From: Synergistota bacterium
GTDB lineage: Bacteria; Synergistota; GBS-1
DNA: 64,000 nt
Direction of reading: 5' to 3'
Assembly: GCA_025060595.1 (NCBI GenBank)
Contig: JANXBX010000009.1
Coordinates: 4,757-68,756, forward strand
Within the stretch, counting starts at the first letter, position 1. Each line of letters opens with the position of its first letter. Of the stretch, positions 36,847 to 55,390 are shown one piece after another. The notes under the pieces were generated by a model, which saw only the letters and a list, made by a program, of their open reading frames with translations, was not told where the DNA came from and did no database searches. The translations under genes and the position numbers were made by a program.

Positions 36847-36858
36847 TTTTAATCACCT

Positions 36859-37917
36859 TTATATGCTTATTAATTTTTCAAGGATATCTGGATTATGAGC
36901 AAATTCCATAGCTATCTCTTTTTCTATTAAACCGCTTTTATAGAGCTTTGCTATAGCTTGATCCATAGTTTGCATTCCAAACTTAGCTCCTGTTTGAATA
37001 ACAGAATATATCTGAGCAATTTTCCCTTCTCTTATTAGATTTCTTACAGCTGGAGTTGCTATCATAACTTCGGCAGCTACTATCCGACCTCCTCCTTTTT
37101 TAGGAAGAAGTTGTTGTGAGATGATTCCTTGAATGACATTAGCAAGTTGCACTCTTACCTGATTCTGCTGATGAGCCGGAAAAACATCTATTATCCTATC
37201 TATAGTTTGAGGAGTATCAGGAGTATGAAGAGTAGTCATAACAAGATGACCCGTTTCCGCAGCTGTTATAGCTATGGAAATCGTCTCAAGATCTCTCATT
37301 TCGCCAATTAGTATAACATCAGGATCTTGTCTCAAAGCATGTCTAAGAGCAGAAGCAAAACTTTGACTATCTACTCCTACCTCTCTTTGAACTATAAGGC
37401 TTTTTTTGTGCTTATGAACATATTCTATAGGGTCTTCTATGGTTATTATTTTACGAGAAGTATTCTCGTTTATATAATCTATCATAGCAGCTAAAGTGGT
37501 GTTTTTCCCACTACCAGTAGGACCGGTCACGAGTACTAATCCCCTAAGCTTCATAGCTAAATCTTTAAGTATTAGAGGAAGCTTTAACTCTTCTATGGTT
37601 CTTATTCTATTAGGAATCAACCTTATAGATGCGCCTGGTGCTCCTCTATGGTAAAATAAGTTTACACGGTAACGAGCCTTATCCTTTATTTCATAAGCAA
37701 AATCAAGTTCTTTGTTTTCTTCAAATAGTTTCCTTTTAAAAGGATCTAATATTTCAGTTATAAGTCTTTCGATTTCCTCTGAGGAAAGCTTATTCCATTC
37801 CCTAACCGGCTGAAGTCTACCATGTATTCTATAAACAGGCTCTATACCTAAAGCTAGATGCAGATCAGAAGCATCAAGTTCTATCATCTTCAACATGAGA
37901 TCTACAAGACTACTCAT
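36859..37917 (-). CDS. pilT: Type IV pilus retraction ATPase PilT (Walker A with Asn)
   Basis: 352 residues. PAS-like N-terminal domain and RecA-type core with Walker A GPTGSGKNTT (132-141), the Asp box IEDPIEYVH, Walker B QDPDVILIGEMRD, the His box ETGHLVMTTLHT, and the retraction motif AVRNLIREGK. The residue after the Walker lysine is Asn139, where Ser or Thr is required for Mg binding in nearly all P-loop ATPases. All other motifs are intact. It starts on the pilB stop (TGATG). Confidence 0.94.
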   Translation of the reverse strand: MSSLVDLMLKMIELDASDLHLALGIEPVYRIHGRLQPVREWNKLSSEEIERLITEILDPFKRKLFEENKELDFAYEIKDKARYRVNLFYHRGAPGASIRLIPNRIRTIEELKLPLILKDLAMKLRGLVLVTGPTGSGKNTTLAAMIDYINENTSRKIITIEDPIEYVHKHKKSLIVQREVGVDSQSFASALRHALRQDPDVILIGEMRDLETISIAITAAETGHLVMTTLHTPDTPQTIDRIIDVFPAHQQNQVRVQLANVIQGIISQQLLPKKGGGRIVAAEVMIATPAVRNLIREGKIAQIYSVIQTGAKFGMQTMDQAIAKLYKSGLIEKEIAMEFAHNPDILEKLISI

Positions 37918-39578
37918 CAGGACGTCACCCTCAAAACTTCCTCAGGAGTAGTGATACCAGCCTTTACCTTTCTTATACCATCTTCTCTAATAGTTATCAT
38001 TCCCTCCTTAATAGCCTGAATCCTTATCTTAGAAGCAGGAGCTCTTTCTATAGTCAAACGTTGAGTTTCTTCGCTTACTAACATTATTTCAAATATTCCA
38101 GTTCTACCTTTATAACCGGTATTTCCACATTCTTCGCATCCCTTACCTAAATAATAGGATACCAAAGATTCAAACTTCTCAGCTATTATAATATTTTTTT
38201 CTCCAACTGCATGAATCTCTTTGCAGCTAGGGCATATTTTTCTAACAAGACGTTGAGCTATAACACCAATTAAGGAAGAAGCAACAAGGTATGGCTCAAT
38301 TCCCATATCTACAAGTCTTGTAATGCTACTTGGAGCATCATTAGTATGGAGTGTAGAAAGAACAAGATGACCAGTCAATGCAGATCTTATAGCTATCTCT
38401 GCTGTTTCTTTATCCCTTATCTCTCCTATCATTATTACATCTGGGTCTTGCCTCAAAACATGCCTAAGTATATTGGAAAAAGTCAATCCTATCTTTTCAT
38501 TAACTTGAACCTGATTTATACCCTCAAGCTGATACTCTACGGGTTCTTCTACAGTAATGATGTTCTTTTCCACAGTGTTCAGTTCCTTTAGCATAGAATA
38601 CAATGTAGTAGTCTTACCACTCCCTGTAGGACCAGTTACAAGTATCATTCCATAAGGTTTAGAAAGCAAACTTTTCACCTTTTCAAGCGCATCTTCCCAA
38701 AAACCCAGTTTTTCCAAACCAATTAAAACATCATCTCGATTAAGGATTCTCATTACTATCTTTTCACCAAAAATGGTGGGAAGGCTTGAAACCCTTAAAT
38801 CTATATCTCTTCCATTATTTGATATGAGCACCCTACCGTCTTGAGGTAACCTTTTTTCAGCTATATTCATGCCAGCCATAACTTTTATTCTAGTAGTTAT
38901 TAAAGGATGAATACCTTTATGAAGGACCATGACTTTCCGCAAAACACCATCAATTCTAAACCTAATAACTATATTATCTTCTTGAGGTTCTATATGAATA
39001 TCACTTGCTCTTTCAAGCAAAGCTTGGGATATAATTCCATTAACTACCTGAATTATAGGAGCAAGCTCATCTTCAGTAACTGTTATATCTGTAGAGGGTT
39101 CTTCTTTAGTTTCTATTTTTTCACGTATCAAAGCATCAACTTTACCCTTCATTCCGTAAAGCTCTTCTATAAGCTGTTTAATCTCACTCCCTGATGCTAC
39201 AGCTACTTCTATATCATATCCAGTTAAAAGGGATAACTCATCTTTAGCTACTACATTCAAAGGATCAGACATAGCGACAAAGAGTTTATTGTTTTTTATC
39301 TCAATAGGGATTAAAACATGTCTTCTTGCAAAGCTTTCAGGAACTAAACTCAAAACTTTAGGGTCTATCTTCTCTTTCCTAATGGAAACAAATGGTATAT
39401 TAAGTTGCTTAGCAATAACAGAAGCAATTTCCTTTTCAGTTAAAATACCCTGCTTCGCTAAAACAACACCAAGCCTCTCTCCTGTCTTTTTCTGCTCTTC
39501 AAGAGCTTTATCTAATTGAGAACGCGTTATAGCTCCTGCTTCTAAAAGCAACTCTCCTAGTCTTTTTCTTTCCTTCAA
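37917..39578 (-). CDS. pilB: Type IV pilus assembly ATPase PilB
   Basis: 553 residues. An MshEN-type N-terminal domain (RLGELLLEAGAITRSQLDKA, and a second half around 55-140) precedes the ATPase with Walker A GPTGSGKTTTLY near residue 315, VEEPVEYQLEG, QDPDVIMIGEIRD and TGHLVLSTLHTND. A zinc motif (CPSCKE with CEECGNTGYKGRTGIFE) closes it. MshEN domains can bind c-di-GMP. It powers pilus extension. Confidence 0.95.
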   Translation of the reverse strand: MKERKRLGELLLEAGAITRSQLDKALEEQKKTGERLGVVLAKQGILTEKEIASVIAKQLNIPFVSIRKEKIDPKVLSLVPESFARRHVLIPIEIKNNKLFVAMSDPLNVVAKDELSLLTGYDIEVAVASGSEIKQLIEELYGMKGKVDALIREKIETKEEPSTDITVTEDELAPIIQVVNGIISQALLERASDIHIEPQEDNIVIRFRIDGVLRKVMVLHKGIHPLITTRIKVMAGMNIAEKRLPQDGRVLISNNGRDIDLRVSSLPTIFGEKIVMRILNRDDVLIGLEKLGFWEDALEKVKSLLSKPYGMILVTGPTGSGKTTTLYSMLKELNTVEKNIITVEEPVEYQLEGINQVQVNEKIGLTFSNILRHVLRQDPDVIMIGEIRDKETAEIAIRSALTGHLVLSTLHTNDAPSSITRLVDMGIEPYLVASSLIGVIAQRLVRKICPSCKEIHAVGEKNIIIAEKFESLVSYYLGKGCEECGNTGYKGRTGIFEIMLVSEETQRLTIERAPASKIRIQAIKEGMITIREDGIRKVKAGITTPEEVLRVTS

Positions 39579-39588
39579 GGATAAACAC

Positions 39589-41541
39589 CTAATCCTTTAA
39601 TATTCTCGGGGTTACAATAAGAACAACTTCCTCTCTTGTGCGAGAATGTGTTTCGCTTCTGAAGAACATACCTATAAATGGTATATCCCCAAGCAAGGGA
39701 ACTTTAAAGAGATTCTTTATATCCTCTTCTGTTATTAAACCTCCAATTATGATAGGCTGTCCATCTTTGACCCTCAGTTTTGTCGTAACTTTCCTATGTC
39801 CGATTTCTGGGATTCTTTGACCAGCATATTCTACCCACCTTGTTATTATACTCACATCTATATCTATATCAAGGGTTATTTTATCATCTTCACCAATGTA
39901 AGGCGTAATAATAAGCTGTGGTCCATAAGTTATTGTTTCCCACTTTTGAGTTATCGTTCTCTCTCCATTCTGTATCTCCTCCACTCTGCTATAGTATTTA
40001 TAATCTCTCGTTAAGTTAATTACTGCCTTTAAACCACTTAAAGTGGCCACACTTGGGCTTGCTAAAACCTTCGCCTTACCAGAAGAAATCCAGGCATTTA
40101 TAGTAGCATCAAAAGCAGCAGACGCTGCCATATCGCTACTGTAGCTTATAGTTATCTGAGAAGAAGGATCCACACTTATGTTATAAAACTTTCCTTTAGA
40201 AATATTAGACAGAACAACGCCAAGGCTTTTACCGCTTTCTAGGGAAACTCCCACAAGTTTTGCCTCAACCATTACCTGAGGGACTTCCCTGTCTAATAGC
40301 TTAATCGTATCCTCAACCTTTTTAATGTCTGCTTGGGATCCTTGAACTATAAGTGCGTTCATTCTTGAGTCAATTACAATATTTTCTACACCAGTTATAG
40401 AAGAAACAGTTTTTGCTATATCTGAAGCTATAGCGTTCGAGAGTAAAAAAACTTTTGTATCTTTTTTATCAAATAATTCTCGAAGTCTCTCTTCTTTTGC
40501 AACAATAAGCGTATTACCAAGATTTCTATAACTTAATCCTGAGATTTTAAGCACCCAATCGAAAGCTTGCGCAAAAGGAATATCTTTAAAGCTAACCGTA
40601 ATTTTTCCTGATACTTCCTGATCAAGAATTATATTTATTTCCACAGCTTTAGCAAGCGCTCTAAAAATATCTCTTATATCTGCATCTCTAAACTCTAAAC
40701 TTACCTTCCTTGAAGCCCATCCTTCGGTTGAATAAGATTCAGTTTTCCTTTCTTTAGGTACAACTTCTTCTTTAGCTTTCGGGAAAAAGTTAATTACAAG
40801 TTCCCTTCCTGAAAAGAAGTTTTCAAGTTTGTAGTTAACTTTCTCAGCTTCAAGACTGACTATTAGCCTAGCTATATGAGGAGTAAATTGCTCTAGGCTA
40901 AAACCTGAGACACCAAAAGCATTTAAAGTCTGACTAAAGCTAGCATCTCTAAAGACAAAACCTTGAAAATCTAATATCATTCGATCTTCTCCTCTATCTC
41001 CTTTTATCCAGTTAATTCTTGGATTCAAGGGTGCCTCACCCTTAACCACAATTTTCAAACCATTTTCCATTATGCTAGCTTTTACGTCTTCTATACTAAA
41101 AATCTTGGCATCTATGGACGTAATTCTTTCTCTGGGTGTGGAAGGATAAAAGTAATATACCAATACTTTTCCATTTTCACTTTCGCTAGCCCGATAAGGA
41201 AGCCTTGTTGAAGAAAACTCAACTACTATACGTGCTTCCCTTTTAGTGTATTGTCCACCTCTAACCTCCCAAACATCGCTTCTCCTTAACGGGAGCTTAC
41301 GTAAGGTAGCCCTATAGTTAAAACTTTCGAAGGATATTACCATTCTCTCTCTATCGCCAGGAAGCCAAATTATATCTGGTTTGGCGGGGTGACTTAAATA
41401 TATAACAAGCTTTACCCACTCTACTGTTGGGTATACTTCTACCTTTTCTATCCTTTTAGTAGCAGCGATAGCTTCTCTTGAGAAAATAAACAATAAAAAT
41501 AAAGCCATACCCACACTACTCATAACTTTAAATAGTTTCAT
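39589..41541 (-). CDS. pilQ: Type IV pilus secretin PilQ
   Basis: About 650 residues from the ATG at 41541 (GAGGAG 5 bp upstream). A signal peptide occupies the first 26 residues (ending near REAIAAT). Two AMIN-like segments follow (about 30-130 and 150-250), then a secretin N-terminal domain (FRDADIRDIFRALAKA near 290), an N1 domain with VQGSQADIKKVEDTI, and the secretin barrel ending in GGLITEEDIKNLFKVP and VPLLGDIPFIGMFFR. A secretin implies an outer membrane. Confidence 0.94.
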   Translation of the reverse strand: MKLFKVMSSVGMALFLLFIFSREAIAATKRIEKVEVYPTVEWVKLVIYLSHPAKPDIIWLPGDRERMVISFESFNYRATLRKLPLRRSDVWEVRGGQYTKREARIVVEFSSTRLPYRASESENGKVLVYYFYPSTPRERITSIDAKIFSIEDVKASIMENGLKIVVKGEAPLNPRINWIKGDRGEDRMILDFQGFVFRDASFSQTLNAFGVSGFSLEQFTPHIARLIVSLEAEKVNYKLENFFSGRELVINFFPKAKEEVVPKERKTESYSTEGWASRKVSLEFRDADIRDIFRALAKAVEINIILDQEVSGKITVSFKDIPFAQAFDWVLKISGLSYRNLGNTLIVAKEERLRELFDKKDTKVFLLSNAIASDIAKTVSSITGVENIVIDSRMNALIVQGSQADIKKVEDTIKLLDREVPQVMVEAKLVGVSLESGKSLGVVLSNISKGKFYNISVDPSSQITISYSSDMAASAAFDATINAWISSGKAKVLASPSVATLSGLKAVINLTRDYKYYSRVEEIQNGERTITQKWETITYGPQLIITPYIGEDDKITLDIDIDVSIITRWVEYAGQRIPEIGHRKVTTKLRVKDGQPIIIGGLITEEDIKNLFKVPLLGDIPFIGMFFRSETHSRTREEVVLIVTPRILKD

Positions 41542-41549
41542 ATTACTCC

Positions 41550-42077
41550 TCACCTCGATTCTTCAAACTCAAGAAACTTCAGCTGATTCTTCCAACTTAT
41601 AACGACTTTACCCTTCTCTATTTTAATTACTTTAACATCACCCCTTTTCTCTCCTTGAGCGAGCACTACTCCTTTTTCGTCTCCTATTTGCAAGACAGCT
41701 ATTTTTTTCGATCCTACATCTACTATTCCTTCGAGCCTAATAGGAGGAGGAATTTCAACAACTAATCCAGACTGAGGATTAACCTTAACTTCTAACTTAT
41801 TTGTTGAAAAGTCCGTTACTAAAAGAAAAGGATCTTTAAGCTCCAAACTTTCAGGTTTGATACTCTTTAAATAATCTTCGCTTTTAGGAAACTCACGAAG
41901 CGTCTCAATCAAAGCATCTATATCCTTTTCAGCTAAAACAGTGACTCTTTCCGCACTAATACTAGCATGAGGCATAGAAGAAGGAGAAAATATATCCTCT
42001 AAGAATCCAGAATAGTAAAGATATGCACTTCCAAAAGCAAGGGATGCAATAAAAGCCCACAAAAACCCTTTTCTCAT
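41550..42077 (-). CDS. pilP: PilP-like type IV pilus protein
   Basis: 175 residues with one N-terminal membrane helix (about 5-22), a disordered stretch, and a C-terminal beta domain with RLEGIVDVGSKKIAVLQIGDE and VVLAQGEKRG, the PilP/GspC homology region. PilP links the PilN/PilO complex to the PilQ secretin. It is encoded directly before pilQ, as usual. Confidence 0.85.
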   Translation of the reverse strand: MRKGFLWAFIASLAFGSAYLYYSGFLEDIFSPSSMPHASISAERVTVLAEKDIDALIETLREFPKSEDYLKSIKPESLELKDPFLLVTDFSTNKLEVKVNPQSGLVVEIPPPIRLEGIVDVGSKKIAVLQIGDEKGVVLAQGEKRGDVKVIKIEKGKVVISWKNQLKFLEFEESR

Positions 42078-42081
42078 ACTT

Positions 42082-42624
42082 TTATCTCTCCAATACTAGA
42101 AAATCTATGTCCATTTTTAAGGTAAGACTATCCTGAGCAACGCTAAGATTAAAGCCCTTGACTCCTATTAGAAAAGGAGAAACCAAAACTTTATTAAGAA
42201 AATCCATTATTGATAAAAAATTTCCACTAAGTTTAATATTAAAAGCAGATATCTTTTCCTTTTCTCTTCTAAAAGTTAACTTTTCCAATTCTAAACCGCT
42301 GTTTCTTGCTGAACTTCCCAAAAGTATAGCTACATTATTTACATCTTCAGATTTTGGCAGGAAAGCTTTATAGGTTTCTACAATTCCTATCAACTGATAG
42401 AGCTTTTCCTTAACATCCTTGGATTTTATAACCTGGCTCTCGAGAATACTTATTTCCTTTGAAAGTTTTTGATCCTTTTCCATCAAATCTGTTAACATAC
42501 TATTGAATTTTACAGTTACAGTTAAATGAAAAATAATAAGGAGAATAAGACCTAATCCCCAAAAAAACCAAAAGTCTTTTTTCTTAAATCTCTCACTTAG
42601 AACATTTCTTAAGTAGACAAACAT
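42082..42624 (-). CDS. pilO: PilO-like type IV pilus assembly protein
   Basis: 180 residues: a short cytosolic N-terminus, one membrane helix at about 18-38, a coiled coil (about 45-75) and a ferredoxin-like C-terminal domain. FLPKSEDVNNVAILLGSSARNSGLELEKL is interrupted here as FLPKSEDVNNVAILLG near 95, a typical PilO segment. It pairs with PilN in the periplasmic alignment complex. Identification rests on architecture and position. Confidence 0.85.
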   Translation of the reverse strand: MFVYLRNVLSERFKKKDFWFFWGLGLILLIIFHLTVTVKFNSMLTDLMEKDQKLSKEISILESQVIKSKDVKEKLYQLIGIVETYKAFLPKSEDVNNVAILLGSSARNSGLELEKLTFRREKEKISAFNIKLSGNFLSIMDFLNKVLVSPFLIGVKGFNLSVAQDSLTLKMDIDFLVLER

Positions 42625-42625
42625 C

Positions 42626-43174
42626 CTACCACCAGCTCTTTAATTTGCATATAAAATTAAAGGGCAACTCACCGCCCTTTTCCCCCTCAAAGCTAGGAAG
42701 AGAAACCTCTTGAATTATTTTCATATTTTTAATAACATTTAAAAGCTCAGCTATAGCCTTTGGAGATGTTGCAAGACCATAGATCCTTAACTCCCTCTCC
42801 TTAAAACTTTCGATCTTATCCAATTTAACCCCATCAGGAAAGTTAGAAGAAAGAGATAATAAAAATTCATAAATAGGTAAAAGTTCAGAAGTAAATGATT
42901 TTAATTGCTTAACAAAACTTTCAGCCTCTTTATATGCGTTGAGGGGATTTTCTCGTTGAAGTTGACTAACTAAGGCATTAAATGTCTTTTCTTTATCTTT
43001 AACAAGCTCACTAAAATAATTATATTGGTAGTAAAGCCATAAAGCAAAAAAAACAGACATAACCCACGCAAGAACAAGGGATATACGCATTAGCGAAAAA
43101 AATAGCTTCTTTCGTCTAAGATTCTTAACCTCTTTGGGCAATAGATTAGGTTTAAATTTTAAAAACTCTTTCAT
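42626..43174 (-). CDS. pilN: PilN-like type IV pilus assembly protein
   Basis: 182 residues. The PilN cytosolic tail KFKPNLLPKEVKNLRR (NLLP motif that binds PilM) is near the start, then one membrane helix (about 28-50), a coiled coil and a C-terminal domain with VKLDKIESFKERELRIYG and ATSPKAIAELLNVIK. It connects cytosolic PilM to PilO. Identification is firm from the NLLP tail and context. Confidence 0.9.
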   Translation of the reverse strand: MKEFLKFKPNLLPKEVKNLRRKKLFFSLMRISLVLAWVMSVFFALWLYYQYNYFSELVKDKEKTFNALVSQLQRENPLNAYKEAESFVKQLKSFTSELLPIYEFLLSLSSNFPDGVKLDKIESFKERELRIYGLATSPKAIAELLNVIKNMKIIQEVSLPSFEGEKGGELPFNFICKLKSWW

Positions 43175-43177
43175 TAA

Positions 43178-44176
43178 TTAATATACCCCCCTTAAAGCTA
43201 AACCTATAGCAAGTCCAAGCCTGTTCCTGAAAACATGAATTTCTTCTGTTTCTTTTTTTAAGTGAATACCCTTTAAAGGATTAATTTTTTTAACTGGAAT
43301 ACCTAATTGGTCTTCTAAAAAAGTTTCCAACCCTTTTAGGGAGCTAACACCTCCAGTTATATAAACACTGCGTACCACATTCTCCTTAAATTGTCCTATT
43401 ATATAGTCGAAGCAATGCATAATTTCACCAATAAGATCGGCTAATATATCTTCAATATAAGGCTTAAGATCTATAATACTCTTGCCTTTCTTTAACTCCT
43501 CGGCTTTATTAAAATCAAGGTTGAGCGAAGCTGAAAGCGCAGATGTAATAGCATTACCCCCTGTTGGTAAAGATCTAAATAGAATAGGACGCATTTCATG
43601 TAATACAGCAATATCTACTGTGCCAGCACCAATATCAATCAACATAAAGCTTTCTTTCTCTTCAACAAGTTCATCAACTCTGAGGATAGGCAAAAGGCTC
43701 GCTTCAATAGCCTCAATTTCAATCCCTATATTCTTGAAAACATTGTATATTCCCTCTACAATAGACTGCTTTGTAGCAACTACTAATATTTCTAACTTTT
43801 CTCCTTCTTCATCAAAAACACTACGCAAAACATAAGAATCATAAACTGCTTCATCTAGGCTAAAGGGTAAATTTCTCCCTATTTCCCAGTCCAAAAATTT
43901 TTTAAGTTCCCTATTTTCAACTTTGGGTATATTTATTAACCTTATTATAACATCCCTGCCACCTATACAAGTCACTACTTTTCCTCTCTTAAAATCAAGT
44001 CTTTCAAACATACTACTTAAAGCCTTTGAAACTGCACCATAGTCCTTTATAAGACCAGCAGCAATAACCCCTAATGGAATAGATTTAAAACCCCATTCCT
44101 CCAGGACCCTCCCCTTCAACTTAACAAATTTGATTCCACTCGTTCCTATATCGATACCTATCCAGGCTCTACTCAT
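43178..44176 (-). CDS. pilM: Type IV pilus actin-like protein PilM
   Basis: 332 residues from the ATG at 44176; a TTG at 44200 would add eight residues. The actin-like ATPase fold shows WIGIDIGTSGIKFVKL, LIDIGAGTVDIAVL near 190 and ITGGVSSLKGLE near 275. PilM forms a cytosolic ring that binds the PilN tail. It follows the ComFB gene by 17 bp. Confidence 0.92.
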   Translation of the reverse strand: MSRAWIGIDIGTSGIKFVKLKGRVLEEWGFKSIPLGVIAAGLIKDYGAVSKALSSMFERLDFKRGKVVTCIGGRDVIIRLINIPKVENRELKKFLDWEIGRNLPFSLDEAVYDSYVLRSVFDEEGEKLEILVVATKQSIVEGIYNVFKNIGIEIEAIEASLLPILRVDELVEEKESFMLIDIGAGTVDIAVLHEMRPILFRSLPTGGNAITSALSASLNLDFNKAEELKKGKSIIDLKPYIEDILADLIGEIMHCFDYIIGQFKENVVRSVYITGGVSSLKGLETFLEDQLGIPVKKINPLKGIHLKKETEEIHVFRNRLGLAIGLALRGVY

Positions 44177-44193
44177 TAACTTATATGCCCCCA

Positions 44194-44478
44194 CTAACAA
44201 GAGTGATCCGGTCTCCTTGAAACAACTTGAATAGCATCCAAAACGGCTTCTAAAACATCAACCTGGAACTGAGCCTCTATTTCCCTGAGCTTCAAAAAGA
44301 TATAGCCTCTGTCTGTAACCATATACTTGGGAGGAAGTCTATTTAAAGCATAGGCCATCATATCTGCGATACATTTATCACACTTACACACATCTTCTCT
44401 ATCCTTTAAAAGTTTAACTAGCGTTTCTCTAACAACTTTCTCCATATAATTTCTTGGCATTTTTTCTTCTGGTATCAT
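44194..44478 (-). CDS. ComFB-family protein
   Basis: 94 residues. A CKCDKC motif followed by IADMMAYALNRLPPKYMVTDRG and a C-terminal helix match the late-competence ComFB family. Members have been described as cyclic-dinucleotide receptors that affect type IV pilus function and competence in cyanobacteria. Here it sits inside the pilus operon between the large pilin and pilM, which supports a regulatory role in pilus function. The start has GGGGTGA 7 bp upstream. Confidence 0.86.
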   Translation of the reverse strand: MIPEEKMPRNYMEKVVRETLVKLLKDREDVCKCDKCIADMMAYALNRLPPKYMVTDRGYIFLKLREIEAQFQVDVLEAVLDAIQVVSRRPDHSC

Positions 44479-44491
44479 TTAAAAATCACCC

Positions 44492-47400
44492 CTACCTTGG
44501 GCTAATTGGGAGATTAGCCCAGTCTATGCCTCTATAAGAACCAGTATTAGCATTTCCCACGTTATTCCACCAATAACAAGGCGAATCATGAGGAAAGCAA
44601 ACCCAGCCATGATTATTACCAGGATTGGAGCTTATATTGCTCGAATCTACATTACTAGGATCGTAATTTAAGCTACCTGAAAGATAAGAGTTACATCCGT
44701 AGAGTCGCCCTGCCCATTTTATACCTGTAATCCTATGCCTTAAGCTACTAACATGGTCAATCACAGTCCCCCCTGCAGGTATATAAAGACCGAAATTTCC
44801 CTTAGCCAACCAATTACTTCCCTCTAAATAGCTACCATTAATATGGATATTTTTTACAAGTCCGCTTCCAGAACTTACATAAACACCATATTCCCAAGAA
44901 CTGTTATTACTCTTCAACCTTAAAAACAAGTCTTTAAAGACAAAATCTCCTTTAGATAGGGAAATTACAGCCTTTTCGGAAAAGATTCCGCTAACCTCAA
45001 GACCTAAACCATATAAGAGAAAGCCTCTTTCTGATATAGAGATCTGAAAAGGTATATCAACTTTTGTATAGTAAGGTCCCCACATTCCTAAAATTCCTAA
45101 TCCAATTTTCGATACCGATAAATTGGAACTAAGAGAGTAAGAACCCTTTCCTAAAATCAGTGTCTCCCCTTCAAGAAGGTTAATCAAGACAAAATTCAAA
45201 TCACTTCCACTAATTCTTTCAATTTGGTTCTCAAGCCTTAACGAGATATTGTTTTCTCCATAAAATACCCTAATATAAGGATATAAATCCATCCTTAAAC
45301 CCATATCACCCCCATCAAAGTTTCCCTCAAGGTAGCTATTAGAACCAGAGAAGACAAGTCTATAAGAAAGAGGGTTAAATAAAGCCTTTATAACCTTTCC
45401 GTTTCCATCGGGGAAAAAGTTTTCCTCTTCGTAAGAGGAAACACTATCATTATGAGCACCAGAGAAATTTTCTCCCCAAAAGAGGTTCCCTTTTATGTTA
45501 ATATTTCCACTATATTGAAGCCCAGATGTATTAAGAAAGCTTCTATCGTAAAAATTGGGAACACCAGAAAGGTCAGCTACTACTCTCCTGTACTCATGAT
45601 CAAATACATTATTGCAAATATTAACAGCTAAACAGTTTTCGATCTTTATATCTATAAGTCTTCCCATACCTCCGTAAATCCTCTTAAAAATACAATCTGC
45701 TATATCTAAAGATGAAACACCAGATAATTTCATAAATACTTTCTCTCCTTGGTCACTTTTACCTCCGCTTAAACCAAAGTAAAAACCATATATGCTAATT
45801 TCGGAAGCGTTATTAAAACTTAAGACTCCCTTTGTTGAAGAAACTGCTTGCCAAACTTCAGGTAAAAAGGTAAATAAAGGTGTAAAAAGCGGTCCCCATG
45901 CAGAAATCATTATGAAACTACCTATGTTATTAAACTCATACCCCTGAGTTATATACCAGAAACCTCTGCCAAAAAGGAGAAGAGCAGAACCAAAGGATGT
46001 AGAGGAATAGTAACTTTTGAGAGCCATAAAGGCACTATCAGCACTGTAAAATTTTTCATACCTATAGGTGTCTCCCATCTTATAAACCAAGATTATCTCT
46101 CCTCCTTTAGGAACAGGCAACATCCTTTTCCAGTAGTATGATGTTAGGCCTATGTTTCTACTTTCAAGTACAGAATCTTTTTGAGGAATATAACCATCCC
46201 AATGCCTGAACCACTCTATATTTTTATAGAAACCTGCGGAAAAACTATAAAACTCCTTAAACTTGGGATCTTCCTCTACCGTATTCACTAATGTAACAAG
46301 TCCTGAAGTTTTATGCATATTTCTCCAAAAAAGTGAATTTTCAACAATAAGAAAACCGTTGGAAACTCCGTTAACTATAGCAGTATTATGATTAAGAAAA
46401 ACACTACTGTTGATCCTCCCATTAAAGGCAGCATCTTTATCAGAAACTTTCAAGATACTTACAGCATAACTTGTAGAACCGGTTTTATAATCAAGAAAAT
46501 TCCCAGCATCAAATATTGAATTTGAAATCTCAAGTTCTGATAACCCCTTGCTTCTTAGGATAACCTTAACGCTAGAAAGAGAGCTTCCCATATAAGCTAC
46601 AAGATCCCTATTTTTAACGATACAATTTTGCAAAACTAAGCGCGTATTGATATCATCAACTAAAACTGCAGAAATATCCTTATTCCGATGAACTTCCTTT
46701 TCAAGGTTTATTCTTTCTAAAGGAGGAGAAAGCCATATATCTCTGATAGTAAGCTCTGCACCGTTTCTGATTCGTATAGTAGACCAATAGTTAGCATCGG
46801 TAATTTGCGAAGAAGCTTTGTAAGGAATTATCCCTACCACTTTAACCCATTGAGGTCCCCATCCTTTAGCAGACCTTAAAATTATGCTTTTATTTCCTTC
46901 AACGTCAATACCATAACAATAATCCCCAGCCCTCTTCATTGGGACCACATAGACGCCAGGACCAAGAACTATTTCATAATCCTTTCCTCCTCCAACAAGT
47001 GTAAAAGCACGTTCTAAAGCTTGTCCACCACGATATCCATCATCAGAAAGCCTTTTCCAGATTTCTCCCCTCTTTATTATTAAAACCTCTCCAATACCTA
47101 CGCTAGCCTCTACACCAATTCCCTCGCCCTGAGGGATAGATGTTTTAGTAAGCTTCAGAGCAAGTGGAAAACGAGAAGCAACTTTCTCCCCTTCCTTTAA
47201 TACCCCCTCTACGTAAAAATAAACTTCGTTTCCTTGCTCACAAATTTTAAAGTTTTCTACACGGAATGCCAACAATCCATCTAAAAAAAGATTATGATCT
47301 GGAAGATATGGCTGAGTCCATGAAACAAGGAGAGATCTCGCTTCACTCCCGTAAAACCACTTCGGGTTAGAAAGGGAAAAAGAAGGATTTTCTAACCTAT

Positions 47401-47578
47401 ATTTAGAGACGGCCTCATTTATACCTGCCTCAGCAGCAAAAAAACTCTGACTTCCTCTTACCTCAGCTCTCGAAACAGCTTGCTGAGAGGAATACAAAAA
47501 AGCAAACCCTCCACCTATAACAGCTAAAACAGTTAGTATAACTAACGACAAAGCTATAGAACTAACCCCTTTTCTCAT
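44492..47578 (-). CDS. Giant PilX-like minor pilin with triplicated beta-helix domain
   Basis: 1028 residues. The N-terminus MRKGVSSIALSLVILTVLAV is a prepilin-like leader (cleavage after Gly4 expected) and hydrophobic helix; SFFAAEAGINEAV (46-58) is the PilX-type motif, and the Glu5 of major pilins is absent. The rest is beta-rich and asparagine/serine-rich, with right-handed beta-helix character. Three modules (about 165-480, 495-765, 765-985) each have a glycine-rich G-x-G-x-Y/F-W-Y strand followed by a WGP motif at 240-242, 561-563 and 833-835. It may sit at the pilus tip as an adhesin; the ligand is unknown. Confidence 0.85.
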   Translation of the reverse strand: MRKGVSSIALSLVILTVLAVIGGGFAFLYSSQQAVSRAEVRGSQSFFAAEAGINEAVSKYRLENPSFSLSNPKWFYGSEARSLLVSWTQPYLPDHNLFLDGLLAFRVENFKICEQGNEVYFYVEGVLKEGEKVASRFPLALKLTKTSIPQGEGIGVEASVGIGEVLIIKRGEIWKRLSDDGYRGGQALERAFTLVGGGKDYEIVLGPGVYVVPMKRAGDYCYGIDVEGNKSIILRSAKGWGPQWVKVVGIIPYKASSQITDANYWSTIRIRNGAELTIRDIWLSPPLERINLEKEVHRNKDISAVLVDDINTRLVLQNCIVKNRDLVAYMGSSLSSVKVILRSKGLSELEISNSIFDAGNFLDYKTGSTSYAVSILKVSDKDAAFNGRINSSVFLNHNTAIVNGVSNGFLIVENSLFWRNMHKTSGLVTLVNTVEEDPKFKEFYSFSAGFYKNIEWFRHWDGYIPQKDSVLESRNIGLTSYYWKRMLPVPKGGEIILVYKMGDTYRYEKFYSADSAFMALKSYYSSTSFGSALLLFGRGFWYITQGYEFNNIGSFIMISAWGPLFTPLFTFLPEVWQAVSSTKGVLSFNNASEISIYGFYFGLSGGKSDQGEKVFMKLSGVSSLDIADCIFKRIYGGMGRLIDIKIENCLAVNICNNVFDHEYRRVVADLSGVPNFYDRSFLNTSGLQYSGNINIKGNLFWGENFSGAHNDSVSSYEEENFFPDGNGKVIKALFNPLSYRLVFSGSNSYLEGNFDGGDMGLRMDLYPYIRVFYGENNISLRLENQIERISGSDLNFVLINLLEGETLILGKGSYSLSSNLSVSKIGLGILGMWGPYYTKVDIPFQISISERGFLLYGLGLEVSGIFSEKAVISLSKGDFVFKDLFLRLKSNNSSWEYGVYVSSGSGLVKNIHINGSYLEGSNWLAKGNFGLYIPAGGTVIDHVSSLRHRITGIKWAGRLYGCNSYLSGSLNYDPSNVDSSNISSNPGNNHGWVCFPHDSPCYWWNNVGNANTGSYRGIDWANLPISPR

Positions 47579-48180
47579 CTTCTTAAATAAACTATCGTTG
47601 AAACTTCCAGGTACTTGCTTTTTTTAAATTTTCTAGTTTCTAGTCCTCCTGGACCAGCTACTTTAATATAAATAAAAGCCCCATTATTAATAAAAGAATT
47701 AGATCCATAAATAAAAGTATTTTTTCCAGGAAGCAATTCTACTTTAAACTCCTCTACGCTTATCCAATAGCTATCTTTCCCTCCATCATAACCATCTGTT
47801 AAAGGTTGAAGAGTACTTACACCTCTAAGCATGCCTAATATATAAGTACTCTCTCCATTTGGTAAATTGCGTCCCCTGTAACAACCTATTAGCATTGGAT
47901 CCACATCTTCAAAGTAAATTTTAAGCACTTTATGATTATCATCAATTACGAAACGAGGATCGTTCGTTATCAATTCTAATCCTATAGCCCCCTTCACTAT
48001 TTCAAGCCTTATTCTATCCAGAGCGTTACGAACATTCTGAAGCATATCTTCACGAACTACGCCATGTCTATAGACTCTCAAGCTACCCAATAAAGATTCC
48101 ATAAGAACCAGGAAAACAATGGCTAATATTGCTATAACAACAAGAGCTTCTACTAAAGTTAATCCTCTTCTAAGATTCAT
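47575..48180 (-). CDS. PilW-like minor pilin
   Basis: 201 residues. MNLRRG followed by LTLVEALVVIAILAIVFLVLM is a class III prepilin leader with Glu5 (cleavage after Gly6) and hydrophobic helix. VREDMLQNVRNALDRIRLEI is typical of PilW/GspJ-type proteins. It is one of three minor pilins encoded in a row after pilD and would help prime pilus assembly. Confidence 0.87.
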   Translation of the reverse strand: MNLRRGLTLVEALVVIAILAIVFLVLMESLLGSLRVYRHGVVREDMLQNVRNALDRIRLEIVKGAIGLELITNDPRFVIDDNHKVLKIYFEDVDPMLIGCYRGRNLPNGESTYILGMLRGVSTLQPLTDGYDGGKDSYWISVEEFKVELLPGKNTFIYGSNSFINNGAFIYIKVAGPGGLETRKFKKSKYLEVSTIVYLRR

Positions 48181-48620
48181 TTTTGTCTTGCTCCAACAAT
48201 TTCAACAAATCTAGAAGGACGGTCACGCTCCCAAACTTTAACCTTTATAAGAACAGTATTATTCACAGAGGATGTAATGAATTCTATTAGACAACAATAG
48301 AAAATTCCATTATAGACACTATCCTCTTTAATAGAGTTTGGATAATAAGAAGGAAGTCGGGCAAAATTATTTTCTGTCCCGGTGAAAGTAAATCGAGTTG
48401 GTAAAGATCCAGGAATATCAGTATCAGCTAAACCGTACATTACTTCTTCAAGTTTACCTTCAGCCAATTTTAACATTACGAATCTTGATTTCTCTTTTTG
48501 TCCACTAAACTCAATAGCATAAAAAAGTGAATAAAGAGCAAGAATACCAATTACAACCATTGCAACAGCTATTAAAGCTTCAACTAAAGAAAACCCCCTT
48601 TTCAACTTATAACCCTCCAA
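48177..48620 (-). CDS. PilV-like minor pilin
   Basis: 147 residues. Prepilin leader KLKRG with cleavage expected after Gly, then FSLVEALIAVAMVVIGILAL (Glu5 present). The following AIEFSGQKEKSRFVMLKLAEGKLEEVMYG resembles PilV/GspI pilins. It overlaps pilD by 19 bp and pilW by 4 bp. The likely start is the ATG at 48620; MKRG-type shorter forms are also possible. Confidence 0.87.
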   Translation of the reverse strand: MEGYKLKRGFSLVEALIAVAMVVIGILALYSLFYAIEFSGQKEKSRFVMLKLAEGKLEEVMYGLADTDIPGSLPTRFTFTGTENNFARLPSYYPNSIKEDSVYNGIFYCCLIEFITSSVNNTVLIKVKVWERDRPSRFVEIVGARQK

Positions 48621-49360
48621 TATAATTCTATCAAAAGTTCCCCTTTAAAAAAAGCTATTGTACTACCTATAGCTAAAAACGGACCAAATGGGACTTTTTC
48701 TCCCATTTTCTTAAAACCAAGAGCAAGTAAAAGAACAGCAAAAATCCCACCTATAATGAAAGCAACTACTAATGCAACTATAGTATTAACACTTCCAAGC
48801 CAAGCACCAACAAAAGCAGCTATACCTATATCCCCCTCTCCCATACCTCCATTAGCAACAAAAAATATTAAAGCCATTATCCCAGCACCATATATGATCC
48901 CTTTAAGAGAAAAGAAAAAACCCTCTGCACCAGACTTAAGTGTAAAAAAAATGATTCCCATAATAATACCCAGGTAAATCGTTGAATCCATGACCTCATA
49001 GCTTCTTAAATCAACAATGGCAACAAACTCGAGTAGAGATAGAAAAAAGCTTGAAAAAATAAAATCATAAGAAAGACCAAACTTATAATAGGATACAAGA
49101 AAAAGAAAGCCTGTTAATAATTCAATAAGAGGGTAACGCAAGGGAATCTTAACACCACAATACCTGCATTTTCCTTTCAAAGCTAAATAACTAAATATCG
49201 GAACAAGATCGCTCCAGCAAAGTTTATGTCCGCAAGAAGGGCAAAAAGAAGGGGGGTAAATAATAGATACCCCCCGTGGCAATCTGTAGATACAAGAGTT
49301 CAAAAAACTACCAATAATCAAACCTAAGAGGAAAACTATAGCTTCCATAGAATTTTTCAA
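48602..49360 (-). CDS. pilD: Prepilin peptidase / N-methyltransferase PilD
   Basis: 252 residues, polytopic. The N-terminal methyltransferase-associated zinc site has CPSCGHKL and CRYCGVKIP; the two catalytic aspartates lie in VDLRSYEVMD and the GMGEGDIG motif near 175. It cleaves and N-methylates the prepilins encoded next to it. It overlaps the ackA stop by 4 bp. Confidence 0.95.
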   Translation of the reverse strand: MKNSMEAIVFLLGLIIGSFLNSCIYRLPRGVSIIYPPSFCPSCGHKLCWSDLVPIFSYLALKGKCRYCGVKIPLRYPLIELLTGFLFLVSYYKFGLSYDFIFSSFFLSLLEFVAIVDLRSYEVMDSTIYLGIIMGIIFFTLKSGAEGFFFSLKGIIYGAGIMALIFFVANGGMGEGDIGIAAFVGAWLGSVNTIVALVVAFIIGGIFAVLLLALGFKKMGEKVPFGPFLAIGSTIAFFKGELLIELYWRVIS

Positions 49361-50718
49361 ATCCCGACAATGGACTTTCCTCCAGGTGGAATAGCGATAA
49401 TTCCTCTAAGTTCCGGCTTTTTCTGAAGTTCTTTCTTGAACTCTTCTGCTCTTAACGGATTAACAAAATTGGGATCCTCAAAAGAGTACTTAAAATTAGT
49501 ATGAATGTCATACCTTCCCTCAAGAATAGCAACTACATCTTCAACGAAAACAAGTTCTTCATCAGTAGGAATAACAAATATTTTTACCCTTGAAGTATCC
49601 TCATGAATAAAGGTTTCAGCATTTCTGGTTTTAGCTATAGCATTTCTTTTACAGTCTAACTTTATTCCCCAAAAATCAAGATTCTCTAAAACTTTTTCTC
49701 TCACCTCAGGAGACATTTCCCCAACACCAGCTGTAAACACTATAGCATCAATATTTCCAAGAGCAAAAGAGTATGCTCCTACATATTTTCTTAATCTATA
49801 ACACTCTATTTCGAAAGCTAGCTTTGCTCTTTCATCACCAGCTTCCAAAGCAGTCATTACATCTCTTCTATCTATATATTTGCCAGTTATTCCCAAAATA
49901 CCACTCTTTTTATTTAATATATCGTTCATAACCTTAGGTGATATTCCCTCTTTCTCCATAACATATAAGTCTATAGCTGCATCGTGATCTCCTGCTCTTG
50001 TTCCCATCACCAACCCTTCAAGCGGAGTGAACCCCATGCTTGTATCGAAAGAAAGGCCTTTTTTAACAGCATTAGCACTTACTCCATTACCTATATGCAA
50101 CGAAACAAGATTGACATCAAAGGGATCTTTTCCTAAGAGAACTGCAGCCCTTTTAGCTACATAAAGAAGCGACGTTCCATGAAAGCCATATCTTCTTATT
50201 TTATATTTCTGATACCACTCATACGGCAGAGCATATATATAAGAGCTTGGCGGCATAGTTTGATGCCACGCAGTATCCATAACTGCAACATGAGGAACAT
50301 TAGGTAAAAGCTCTTTTGCCGCTTCAATCCCCATTACATTAGGAGGATTATGAAGAGGAGCAAGATCAGAAAGCTTTCTAAAAGTTTCTAAAGCTTTATC
50401 ATCAATTAAAACAGACTTCGCAAACTCTTCTCCTCCATGAACTACTCTGTGACCAACTGCATTTATTTCCTTAACGTTATTAATAACACCATATTGGGGG
50501 TGAACAAGCAATTCGATAATGAGCTTAATAGCTTCTTTATGGGTAGGACAATCATGCTCAACTCTGGTACTCTCTTTACCATGGGGAGAGTGAATACAAA
50601 AAGAACCCCCTACCGTTACTCGCTCAACCGTACCCTTCACTAAAGGCAGTTTTTTTTCCCAATCATAAAGCATATATTTAACGGAAGAACTACCACAGTT
50701 TAAAGTTAATATATACAT
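49357..50718 (-). CDS. ackA: Acetate kinase with C-terminal extension
   Basis: 453 residues from the ATG at 50718 (GGGAGGTG upstream), about 50 longer than typical enzymes. Motifs: LTLNCGSSSVKYML, GHRVVHGGE, MDTAWHQTMPPSSYIYALPYEWY (given in parts: MDTAWHQTMPP), RRYGFHGTS, HIGNGVS and FTAGVGEMSPEVR. The standard C-terminus at IPTDEEL is followed by about 57 extra residues with an aromatic-rich segment. It makes ATP from acetyl phosphate. No phosphotransacetylase gene is visible here. It is followed directly by pilD. Confidence 0.94.
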   Translation of the reverse strand: MYILTLNCGSSSVKYMLYDWEKKLPLVKGTVERVTVGGSFCIHSPHGKESTRVEHDCPTHKEAIKLIIELLVHPQYGVINNVKEINAVGHRVVHGGEEFAKSVLIDDKALETFRKLSDLAPLHNPPNVMGIEAAKELLPNVPHVAVMDTAWHQTMPPSSYIYALPYEWYQKYKIRRYGFHGTSLLYVAKRAAVLLGKDPFDVNLVSLHIGNGVSANAVKKGLSFDTSMGFTPLEGLVMGTRAGDHDAAIDLYVMEKEGISPKVMNDILNKKSGILGITGKYIDRRDVMTALEAGDERAKLAFEIECYRLRKYVGAYSFALGNIDAIVFTAGVGEMSPEVREKVLENLDFWGIKLDCKRNAIAKTRNAETFIHEDTSRVKIFVIPTDEELVFVEDVVAILEGRYDIHTNFKYSFEDPNFVNPLRAEEFKKELQKKPELRGIIAIPPGGKSIVGI

Positions 50719-50825
50719 TTTAAAATACACCTCCCATAAAACTTTCAACATTCTTTTTTAAGGTAATTTTAAACTCACCTTTAGGTCCTTTCCTATTTTA
50801 ACACAATTAGATTAAAACTATTTGT
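50719..50825. other. Intergenic gap between ppx/gppA and ackA
   Basis: This 107-bp AT-rich gap is the largest in the minus-strand run. It holds the ackA ribosome site (GGGAGGTG) and a small AAGGT/ACCTT inverted match, but I see no convincing -35/-10 pair, terminator or small gene. Confidence 0.5.
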
Positions 50826-52983: not shown

Positions 52984-53958
52984 TTATTTAAATACTTCTT
53001 CATCAACTCTCAACTTAGATAGCAATATTTTATTAATATCACCTATCTTTGTACAAGGAGTCTTAATCAAAAGTTTTCTCTCATCTATCTCTAAGACTAA
53101 TCCAACATCTAAAAGTCCCTCGTTTCCCTCGAGCCCTAGAAGTGTATGTTTTAGACTCCCTATATGTATCCACTCTAATTCAGCGTCAATCCCACGTTCT
53201 GGATAAGAAACGGTAAGAATTTTTAACTTCCCATTGCACTTTTCAGCCCACAAGATCCCTGTACCAATCTTAAAGGAAAGTTCTTGAACAGCAGTTTTAC
53301 TTAAAGGTATTCCTACACCAAAGTGAGGAAATCCTCCCACTTTAACATCATTCCACGCAAGCTCAACTTCAATAGCGTTTTTAAAGTAAGCTTTCCACAT
53401 TTTAATGCGATTAGAGCGTCTTTCCTCTAAAGTTTTTATCCTAACCCCAGAAGGTGATGGTAAAACTACCACACGAGTGTACCTCGAAAACTCATCTATA
53501 AGATGAAGATAATCTCTCTCATTTCCCAAAAAAATAACAACATCTGGTTTAACAACGGAAATTTTACTTTTTACAAGGGTATACCCATCCTTTCCCATTA
53601 TTAGACCAGAAGAGTCTATAATTACTATATCTCTATCCCTGCAAGCAAAACTAACAAGATCCCCTAATCCCCACAACGTAGGCCAAATAAAAGGCCCTCC
53701 TGGAGATGTAGAGCCTATAAAGGCAAGCTTAACTGGAGAAACTTCCGAAAGCTTTTCAACCTTACCATCCAGAAAGCCTAAACCCAATGTTCCGGGTGGA
53801 CCTATATCTGATTGCCCCGGGTCAGCATCAACAACTGCAACTTTCTTTCCCTCAGAAATTAACTTGTTAGCTAAAAGGAGAGCAAGTGTAGTTTTCCCTG
53901 TATCCACCTTCCCAAGCAAAATAATTATTCTCTCTTGATCACTCAAATCTAGAACCAA
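52984..53958 (-). CDS. Clp1-type polynucleotide 5'-hydroxyl-kinase-like P-loop protein
   Basis: 324 residues starting at TTG 53958, with AAGGAG about 10 bp upstream. Walker A GKVDTGKTTLALLLANKL near residue 16 and VVDADPGQSDIGPPGTLGLGF match the Clp1_P/Grc3 kinase fold; DSSGLI follows, then a separate C-terminal domain (about 200-324). In archaea and eukaryotes such proteins phosphorylate RNA 5'-OH ends; bacterial members are poorly studied. It is paired with a small coiled-coil gene upstream. Archease is encoded elsewhere in the window, so an RNA-repair link is possible. Confidence 0.82.
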   Translation of the reverse strand: MVLDLSDQERIIILLGKVDTGKTTLALLLANKLISEGKKVAVVDADPGQSDIGPPGTLGLGFLDGKVEKLSEVSPVKLAFIGSTSPGGPFIWPTLWGLGDLVSFACRDRDIVIIDSSGLIMGKDGYTLVKSKISVVKPDVVIFLGNERDYLHLIDEFSRYTRVVVLPSPSGVRIKTLEERRSNRIKMWKAYFKNAIEVELAWNDVKVGGFPHFGVGIPLSKTAVQELSFKIGTGILWAEKCNGKLKILTVSYPERGIDAELEWIHIGSLKHTLLGLEGNEGLLDVGLVLEIDERKLLIKTPCTKIGDINKILLSKLRVDEEVFK

Positions 53959-54058: not shown

Positions 54059-54382
54059 TTATTCTTTGCGAGGGTTAGGCTTCTTAAACAAACCAGCAAG
54101 GGGAATTTTATCCGGGTTTTCCATCAAAAAAGAAATATATTCTTCCATTTGTTGAGAACGTGTTTTATCTTTTCCCAAGAGAGAGGATATTTTCGTAGCG
54201 AAAGAAGATGTTCTAGAAACTCTGGCGCTCTTGGTATCCAACAAAAGCTCAAGGAGGGAGCGAATGCGTAGTTGTTCCTCTTCCATTTTTTCTATTTTCC
54301 TATTTATAGCAGAAAGTTCGGATACAAGAATCTCAAGAAGTTCTTTTATAATACTGAGTAATTCACTGTTTTCTACTGCCAT
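54059..54382 (-). CDS. Small coiled-coil protein of unknown function
   Basis: 107 residues; I recognise no family. Residues 5 to about 50 form an amphipathic coiled coil rich in Leu/Ile/Glu, the middle is Ser/Arg-rich, and the C-terminal part (ISFLMENPDKIPLAGLF) could be a short binding motif. The start has AAGGAGGGG upstream. The TAA stop is followed in the same frame by 30 further sense codons up to a TGA at 53966-53968. It is probably co-transcribed with the Clp1-like gene. Confidence 0.72.
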   Translation of the reverse strand: MAVENSELLSIIKELLEILVSELSAINRKIEKMEEEQLRIRSLLELLLDTKSARVSRTSSFATKISSLLGKDKTRSQQMEEYISFLMENPDKIPLAGLFKKPNPRKE

Positions 54383-54413: not shown

Positions 54414-54442
54414 TCTTTATTTTTATGGAGGGAGAGCTAAAA

Positions 54443-55390
54443 ATGAAAGAACCTTTCAGACAAGTGGAAGAAAGAATAATACTTATAACAGAAGGAACTA
54501 AACTAATAATAAAAAACATCTATGGAAGTACTAAATTAAAAACATGGGATCATCCAGAATTAAAGGTTAAGCTAACCAAAAGCATATTGGGGGAAATTGA
54601 AGAAAATGAGGCAGAGCAAAAGCTAAAACACATAGAACTAAAAGAGAAAAAAGGAAGTAAAGAAGTAACTATGGAAACGATGATCCCTAATTTCATTATA
54701 AGGCCAGGCCTTAAATTTACTATAGATTTAGACATTCTTGCTCCCCCACATATTAACTTAGAAATAGATACAGGTCTTCAAAAGCTAAATGGAAGTAAGA
54801 AAGAAGGAAATATAGAAATATCTTATAGGGAAAACTTTACTACGTTAATATCTAATATAAAAGGAAATATAGACATATCCTGTGGATCTGCAGACATAGA
54901 AATTAAAAACTCTGAAGGGAAAATAATAGTAAATAGTTTAAGCGGAACAGTTCAAATTAAAAATTGTTCGGGAGAGATGTATATTAATAACGAAAGCGGT
55001 AATAATTATTTAGATGGATGTAGTGGATCTATAACATTAAAAACCAAAAGCGGAAATGTATTTCTGAAAAATGTAGAAAGCCTGTACTTAAACATTAAAA
55101 CATCTAGTGGAAATATAAAAGCAGATATCAACATTTTAGCTGATGGAACCTATCAACTCGAGACCCATTCTGGATGGATAAAGTTAAAAATACCGTATTA
55201 TTCCTCTTGCCATATAGAATTTGACACAATATGTGGTAAAATCTTTAGTGAGTATTCCTTCGAAACAAAGGAAAATAAATTGAAACTTGGAGAAGCCAAA
55301 GGAAGCCTTATAGTAAAATCTTCAAGTGGCGACATATATTTAATTCATGGCTTCATGGAGGAAGAAAAAGATGTTTATCTTAGCCAATGA
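54443..55390 (+). CDS. DUF4097-family beta-repeat protein (first of tandem pair)
   Basis: 315 residues from the ATG at 54443, which follows GGAGGGAGAG. There is no signal peptide or membrane helix. From about residue 100 the sequence is a run of short beta strands with S-G-x-(I/V) turns (for example SGTVQIKNCSGEMYI, SGNVFLKN, SGDIYLIHG), the left-handed or solenoid repeat of DUF4097/YvlB-like proteins. The N-terminal 90 residues are a separate domain shared with the next gene. The function of the family is unclear. Confidence 0.82.
   Translation: MKEPFRQVEERIILITEGTKLIIKNIYGSTKLKTWDHPELKVKLTKSILGEIEENEAEQKLKHIELKEKKGSKEVTMETMIPNFIIRPGLKFTIDLDILAPPHINLEIDTGLQKLNGSKKEGNIEISYRENFTTLISNIKGNIDISCGSADIEIKNSEGKIIVNSLSGTVQIKNCSGEMYINNESGNNYLDGCSGSITLKTKSGNVFLKNVESLYLNIKTSSGNIKADINILADGTYQLETHSGWIKLKIPYYSSCHIEFDTICGKIFSEYSFETKENKLKLGEAKGSLIVKSSSGDIYLIHGFMEEEKDVYLSQ

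Follow-up and report, generated by a model that had tools for sequence, protein, structure and literature searches.

Why should a type IV pilus (T4P) operon encode a PilX-like minor pilin of 1028 amino acids, and what could such a pilin do for the cell? The question is raised by a gene cluster in a window of 64,000 nucleotides from a Synergistota bacterium (GenBank JANXBX010000009.1, positions 4,757 to 68,756). The original prediction for this gene, made from the DNA letters, had described a giant minor pilin with three beta-helix modules that arose by internal triplication, possibly an adhesin at the pilus tip.

A giant PilX-type prepilin in a type IV pilus operon

The gene is intact, starts with ATG and is present in a single copy in its genome, where no second giant pilin was found in the three other pilin clusters that were read. 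Its product opens with MRKG, a class III prepilin leader, and residues 4-53 match PilX_N (PF14341, E 8.4e-6), the sole Pfam family recognised in the protein, with a score of 26.1 bits that barely exceeds the cut-off of 25.5. The prepilin helix and the AAEAG motif expected at the start both lie within residues 1-63. A Pfam match to Smg4_UPF3 (E 0.044) was judged to be a chance hit. The protein is divided as follows:

44492-47578, minus strand: giant PilX/GspK-type prepilin, 1028 aa (open reading frame, PilX_N, orthologues)
47390-47578, minus strand: residues 1-63, class III leader MRKG, N-terminal helix without Glu5 (VSSIA) and AAEAG motif (PilX_N; residue 5 is A; helices in model)
47141-47389, minus strand: residues 64-146, predicted pilin beta-sheet domain (low-confidence model strands at residues 103-144; orthologue identity)
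46127-47140, minus strand: module 1, residues 147-484, predicted right-handed beta-helix (model match; low pLDDT)
45254-46126, minus strand: module 2, residues 485-775, predicted right-handed beta-helix (stand-alone model, fold match)
44495-45253, minus strand: module 3, residues 776-1028, predicted right-handed beta-helix (model match; low pLDDT)

The surrounding genes form a complete T4P operon on the minus strand, in the order prepilin peptidase, PilV-like, PilW-like, giant PilX, ComFB, PilM, PilN, PilO, PilP-like, PilQ, PilB, PilT and PilC. The giant pilX gene overlaps pilW by 4 bases (47575-47578) and is separated from comFB by 13 bases; since the reading frames of the cluster either overlap or are separated by only a few bases, transcription as one operon is probable. 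Together with the PilX_N match, these genes bear out the description of a PilX-like minor pilin of 1028 residues inside a T4P locus. The neighbours are:

48602-49360, minus strand: prepilin peptidase PilD (Peptidase_A24 and A24_N)
48177-48620, minus strand: PilV/GspI-type minor prepilin, Glu5 present (N_methyl; PilV profile below cut-off; Glu5)
47575-48180, minus strand: PilW/GspJ-type minor prepilin, Glu5 present (N_methyl; Glu5)
44194-44478, minus strand: ComFB, between pilX and pilM (Pfam ComFB, E 2.6e-28)
39589-44200, minus strand: pilM, pilN, pilO, pilP-like gene and pilQ (profiles; pilP by position only)
35626-39578, minus strand: pilB with MshEN, pilT and pilC (profiles; two MshEN motifs in PilB)

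A homologue search next to the pilM-Q genes, proposed as a check of the original prediction, returned full-length orthologues from two further genera of the family, a small group of hot-spring-type bacteria, where they occupy the corresponding place. They are 1040 and 1048 aa long, with 55% and 49% identity, and their flanking genes match those of the giant pilX to the extent of their contigs. One of them belongs to 'bacterium GBS-1' (LEKQ01000001.1), a name that suggests Great Boiling Spring; we assume that GBS-1 may be a class of its own within Synergistota in GTDB. Identity runs from 38 to 65% per segment, spread over all parts and modules (58-59% for residues 41-146), and is comparable to the identity seen for PilV, PilW and PilM. 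Because the orthologues occupy the same place in two further genera, giant PilX is no assembly accident; a frameshift or assembly artefact was likewise rejected, the frame being open in all three genera. Judged by these comparisons, giant PilX is real and old. A profile of the giant proteins detected no such form outside the family among 185 phylum genomes, and a search of genome contigs with one giant sequence as query gave no relative. One genome of the same genus is without giant PilX, and its completeness is only 77%. With just three giant sequences available for profiles and alignments, profile and structure methods are weak here.

Three predicted beta-helices

A full-length AlphaFold2 model, built from a two-sequence alignment, had a mean pLDDT of 40. 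Three of its stretches nevertheless matched different right-handed parallel beta-helices of known structure: residues 212-435 matched pectate lyase Pel3 (Z 11.9, rmsd 3.2 Å over 171 residues), residues 495-737 matched 4mxn (Z 11.6, 3.7 Å over 169) and residues 786-1028 matched the PL6 lyase 5z9t (Z 9.7, rmsd 3.8 Å over 203). When module 2 was modelled alone, its first ~175 residues, to which good model confidence is restricted, were well predicted, most ten-residue blocks having pLDDT 70-95. The best fold matches of this stand-alone model were all beta-helices, led again by 4mxn (Z 13.6, rmsd 3.1 Å over 170), and Foldseek with module 2 gave a weak match (E 0.0099), with nothing below E 0.001. 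In sequence searches, Beta_helix (PF13229) matched weakly in one of the three orthologues (E 0.95), and PDB searches with giant PilX returned nothing meaningful.

A right-handed parallel beta-helix of the pectin-lyase/tailspike type is thus likely in module 2, whose stand-alone model has this fold, and probable in modules 1 and 3, where the low-confidence full-length model is the source. Structure prediction, the other check that had been proposed, therefore yielded the repeated beta-helix stretches and, at the level of models, upheld the three modules, with module 2 locally confident. Acquisition of a whole phage tailspike was rejected: phage, plasmid and viral contig collections gave no hits, and only a weak PHROG match was obtained.

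WGP motifs and the question of triplication

The three WGP motifs from which triplication had been proposed are present at the expected residues:

46853-46861, minus strand: WGP of module 1, residues 240-242 (sequence)
45890-45898, minus strand: WGP of module 2, residues 561-563 (sequence)
45074-45082, minus strand: WGP of module 3, residues 833-835 (sequence)

Three occurrences compare with 0.074 expected from the composition of the protein, and a G-x-G-x-Y/W strand precedes every one of them (LGPGVYVV, FGRGFWYI and LGKGSYSL), as had been noticed. The start element of a module consists of a predicted helix, G-x-G-x-Y/W and, 20-30 residues later, WGP. The WGP itself varies in the orthologues: GBS-1 has LGP in its module 1, and the other orthologue (G002) has WGA in its module 2.

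In self-alignment, the start element is common to modules 2 and 3 (z 5.7, p 4e-4; 0.0007 and 0.004 in the orthologues), whereas the start of module 1 is only marginally similar to those of modules 2 and 3 (p ~0.01-0.05) and fails in some orthologues. The best off-diagonal matches of the self-scan paired residue 531 with 801 (modules 2 and 3) and residue 331 with 601 (modules 1 and 2). Comparison of whole modules by hhalign, profile against profile with three sequences each, gave nothing significant. Strict internal triplication is thus partly supported by the sequences: the relation between the starts of modules 2 and 3 stands, but the pairs that involve module 1 are marginal and inconsistent, and homology does not extend detectably to whole-module profiles. 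In our view the start element is similar to the one with which pectin-lyase-like beta-helices generally begin, so the modules were possibly recruited separately. The sequence evidence favours a description as three beta-helix modules over one as a single module copied three times.

Predicted position at the pilus tip

Minor pilins form a tip complex that is capped by a subunit without Glu5 (reviewed in PMC10191384). In Myxococcus xanthus PilX lacks Glu5, is placed atop the complex and is important in holding PilY1 (PMC7541494). In the three giant proteins, A, G or S stands at position 5 of the mature chain, numbered from the cleavage site that follows the leader glycine, while the PilV and PilW proteins of the family have E; in the short PilX of another Synergistota family (G005, described below) it is W. 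The giant pilX gene also follows pilV and pilW in the operon, the place of a PilX/GspK-type cap. The missing Glu5 and the gene order together predict that giant PilX caps the pilus tip, in agreement with the tip location that had been suggested for it (PMC10191384, PMC7541494).

Short PilX and PilY1 in other families

The comparison with G005 indicates how the giant form is built. Its matching gene run comprises a DUF4097-like pair, a small coiled-coil gene, PilV, PilW, PilX, ComFB, PilM, PilN, PilO and PilP, and its PilX has only 189 aa. The profile of the giant proteins matches this short PilX over its first 52 residues, so that the giant form can be described as a normal PilX start followed by ~880 residues.

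Four other families (L036, L037, L038 and L039) have PilV, PilW, a PilX of 193-247 aa and then a PilY1 of ~1,000-1,250 aa; in L036 and L039, PilY1 is followed by PilM and other machine genes, whereas in the giant-PilX family comFB and pilM directly follow giant pilX. The PilY1 propeller (PF05567), searched with the Pfam profile in six frames, is present in 66 of 183 phylum genomes, which serves as a positive control. The same single-profile, six-frame search detected it in none of the four genomes of the giant-PilX family, three of which are at least 96% complete. It was also undetected in G005 (82% complete) and in most other genomes of the phylum. Since G005 combines a short PilX with undetected PilY1, loss of PilY1 need not go with the giant form. 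Giant PilX without PilY1 represents one evolutionary event and not a statistical association.

Giant PilX itself has no PF05567 match. A fusion of PilX with PilY1 was rejected as far as tested, there being neither PF05567 nor significant BLAST or profile similarity to the PilY1 proteins of sister families. In two further families (L042:1034-4065 and L043:4079-7208), a short PilX is followed by a secreted-looking protein of 802 or 855 aa with no Pfam hit; by reading, its C-terminal part is PilY1-propeller-like, and it may be a divergent PilY1.

A modular pilin novel in form

Giant PilX had been thought to be an undescribed pilus component, a view that did not hold, because the kind is known. 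Modular pilins, of which more than 1,200 in 264 architectures have been catalogued (PMC8179133), consist of a pilin part and an extra module, which in giant PilX are indicated by the comparison with the 189-aa orthologue and by the predicted beta-helix matches. The PilB and PilC proteins of Streptococcus sanguinis likewise have a binding module grafted on a pilin part at the tip, there a single vWA or lectin domain (PMC8179133, PMC9934059); giant PilX differs in having three predicted beta-helices on a K-type cap, within a diderm-type operon with PilQ. The large minor pilin GspK of type II secretion also lies at the tip without Glu5, but carries an alpha-helical insertion in place of predicted beta-helices. 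The PilX-PilY1 pair has the same operon position, a Glu5-less PilX on top and a tip protein of ~1,000 residues (PMC7541494), whereas in giant PilX the large part belongs to the pilin polypeptide itself and is predicted to be beta-helical, with no PilY1 detected; the PilY1 of the pair is a vWA and beta-propeller protein. ComZ of Thermus thermophilus is likewise a pilin of a thermophile, with a large DNA-binding beta-solenoid and an argued tip location (PMC6561018). In ComZ a single solenoid is inserted into the pilin sheet, between its final two strands (PMC6561018), while in giant PilX three predicted beta-helices follow the pilin part with no evident return to its sheet. With ComZ and modular pilins known, giant PilX is novel in form and not in kind; what is new is its size, the three modules per protein, their attachment to a Glu5-less cap and the missing PilY1.

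What giant PilX may do

Giant PilX is probably a modular pilin in the PilX/GspK position, a tip cap with predicted beta-helices that stand in for PilY1 in binding a ligand. The neighbouring prepilin peptidase PilD would cleave the MRKG leader, and the mature protein would cap the PilV-PilW minor-pilin complex that initiates the pilus. It would leave the cell first, with its ~880 C-terminal residues (three predicted beta-helices) projecting from the tip and meeting the outside first. The beta-helices might then bind a putative ligand, most likely a surface, a glycan or a neighbouring cell, on which pilus extension and PilT retraction would pull. The binding part would thus sit on the pilin itself in the giant-PilX family and on a separate PilY1 in sister families.

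The prevailing view of PilY1 is that it serves as the tip adhesin of type IVa pili and, in diderm pili, belongs to the priming complex. A bolder and more tentative proposal is that one gene replaced the PilX-PilY1 pair, a Glu5-less cap with three beta-helices priming the pilus without PilY1 and being itself the tip adhesin. Tip display, ligand binding and replacement of PilY1 by giant PilX are all steps that we infer. If they are true, a cap pilin can take over both jobs of PilY1 in a diderm-type machine that keeps PilV, PilW and PilX, and one phylum offers a before-and-after comparison, short PilX with PilY1 against giant PilX alone.

The main rival to a ligand-binding tip cap is a ComZ-like DNA receptor for natural transformation, whose beta-helices would bind DNA that retraction imports. 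ComZ provides the precedent of a tip pilin with a DNA-binding beta-solenoid (PMC6561018), the competence-named comFB is the next gene, and ComEC, ComEA and DprA were found in all family genomes examined; they also match in most control genomes, however, which makes them weak evidence. The modules have no net positive charge, although ComZ has no obvious positive patch either, and PDB searches gave no sequence link to ComZ, whose absence from the sequence and fold matches listed for giant PilX excludes nothing. We regard a DNA receptor as rather unlikely. Considerably less likely still are polysaccharide lyase or hydrolase domains that cut matrix polysaccharide at the tip: the nearest folds come mainly from polysaccharide lyases, glycoside hydrolases and tailspikes, but fold alone is no proof of function, identity to these matches is 8-14% and no enzyme family profile matches giant PilX. 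Least credible is a GspK-like tip of a secretion pseudopilus that handles secreted substrates, since the operon holds pilM-N-O, a PilQ-type secretin and PilT and the genome has a separate T2SS-like cluster (L028), even though PilX, GspK and giant PilX have position and missing Glu5 in common (PMC7541494).

Nucleotide-binding domains and neighbouring genes

In the pilus that would carry the tip cap, the extension ATPase PilB (37917-39578, minus strand) contains an MshEN domain in which the c-di-GMP motif occurs twice, at residues 6-29 and 35-58. Such motifs are of the kind that binds c-di-GMP (PMC11731258), and a passage of PMC13249358 cites ComFB as described as a c-di-NMP receptor family. The gene order pilX-comFB-pilM is also kept in GBS-1 and G005. 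The MshEN motifs of PilB and the presence of ComFB suggest that pilus extension may be under nucleotide control.

Several other genes were noticed near the operon and elsewhere in the genome. An acetate kinase gene (49357-50751, minus strand), oriented like the pilus operon, lies upstream of the prepilin peptidase gene, with a 4-base overlap. Also on the minus strand, 52984-53958 encodes a P-loop protein similar by eye to polynucleotide kinases of the Clp1/Grc3 type, which are unusual in bacteria. The T2SS-like cluster of the same genome (contig C2:28000-36000) comprises a secretin, an ATPase, a platform protein and two pseudopilins, and adjoins two SLH-domain porin-like genes. Near the pilus operon, an adjacent gene pair at 54425-56612 (plus strand), the first with DUF4097 (Toastrack) and the second alike by eye, lies close to a small coiled-coil gene at 54059-54382; in G005 (L032) such a DUF4097-like pair, together with a small coiled-coil gene, directly adjoins the pilus operon.
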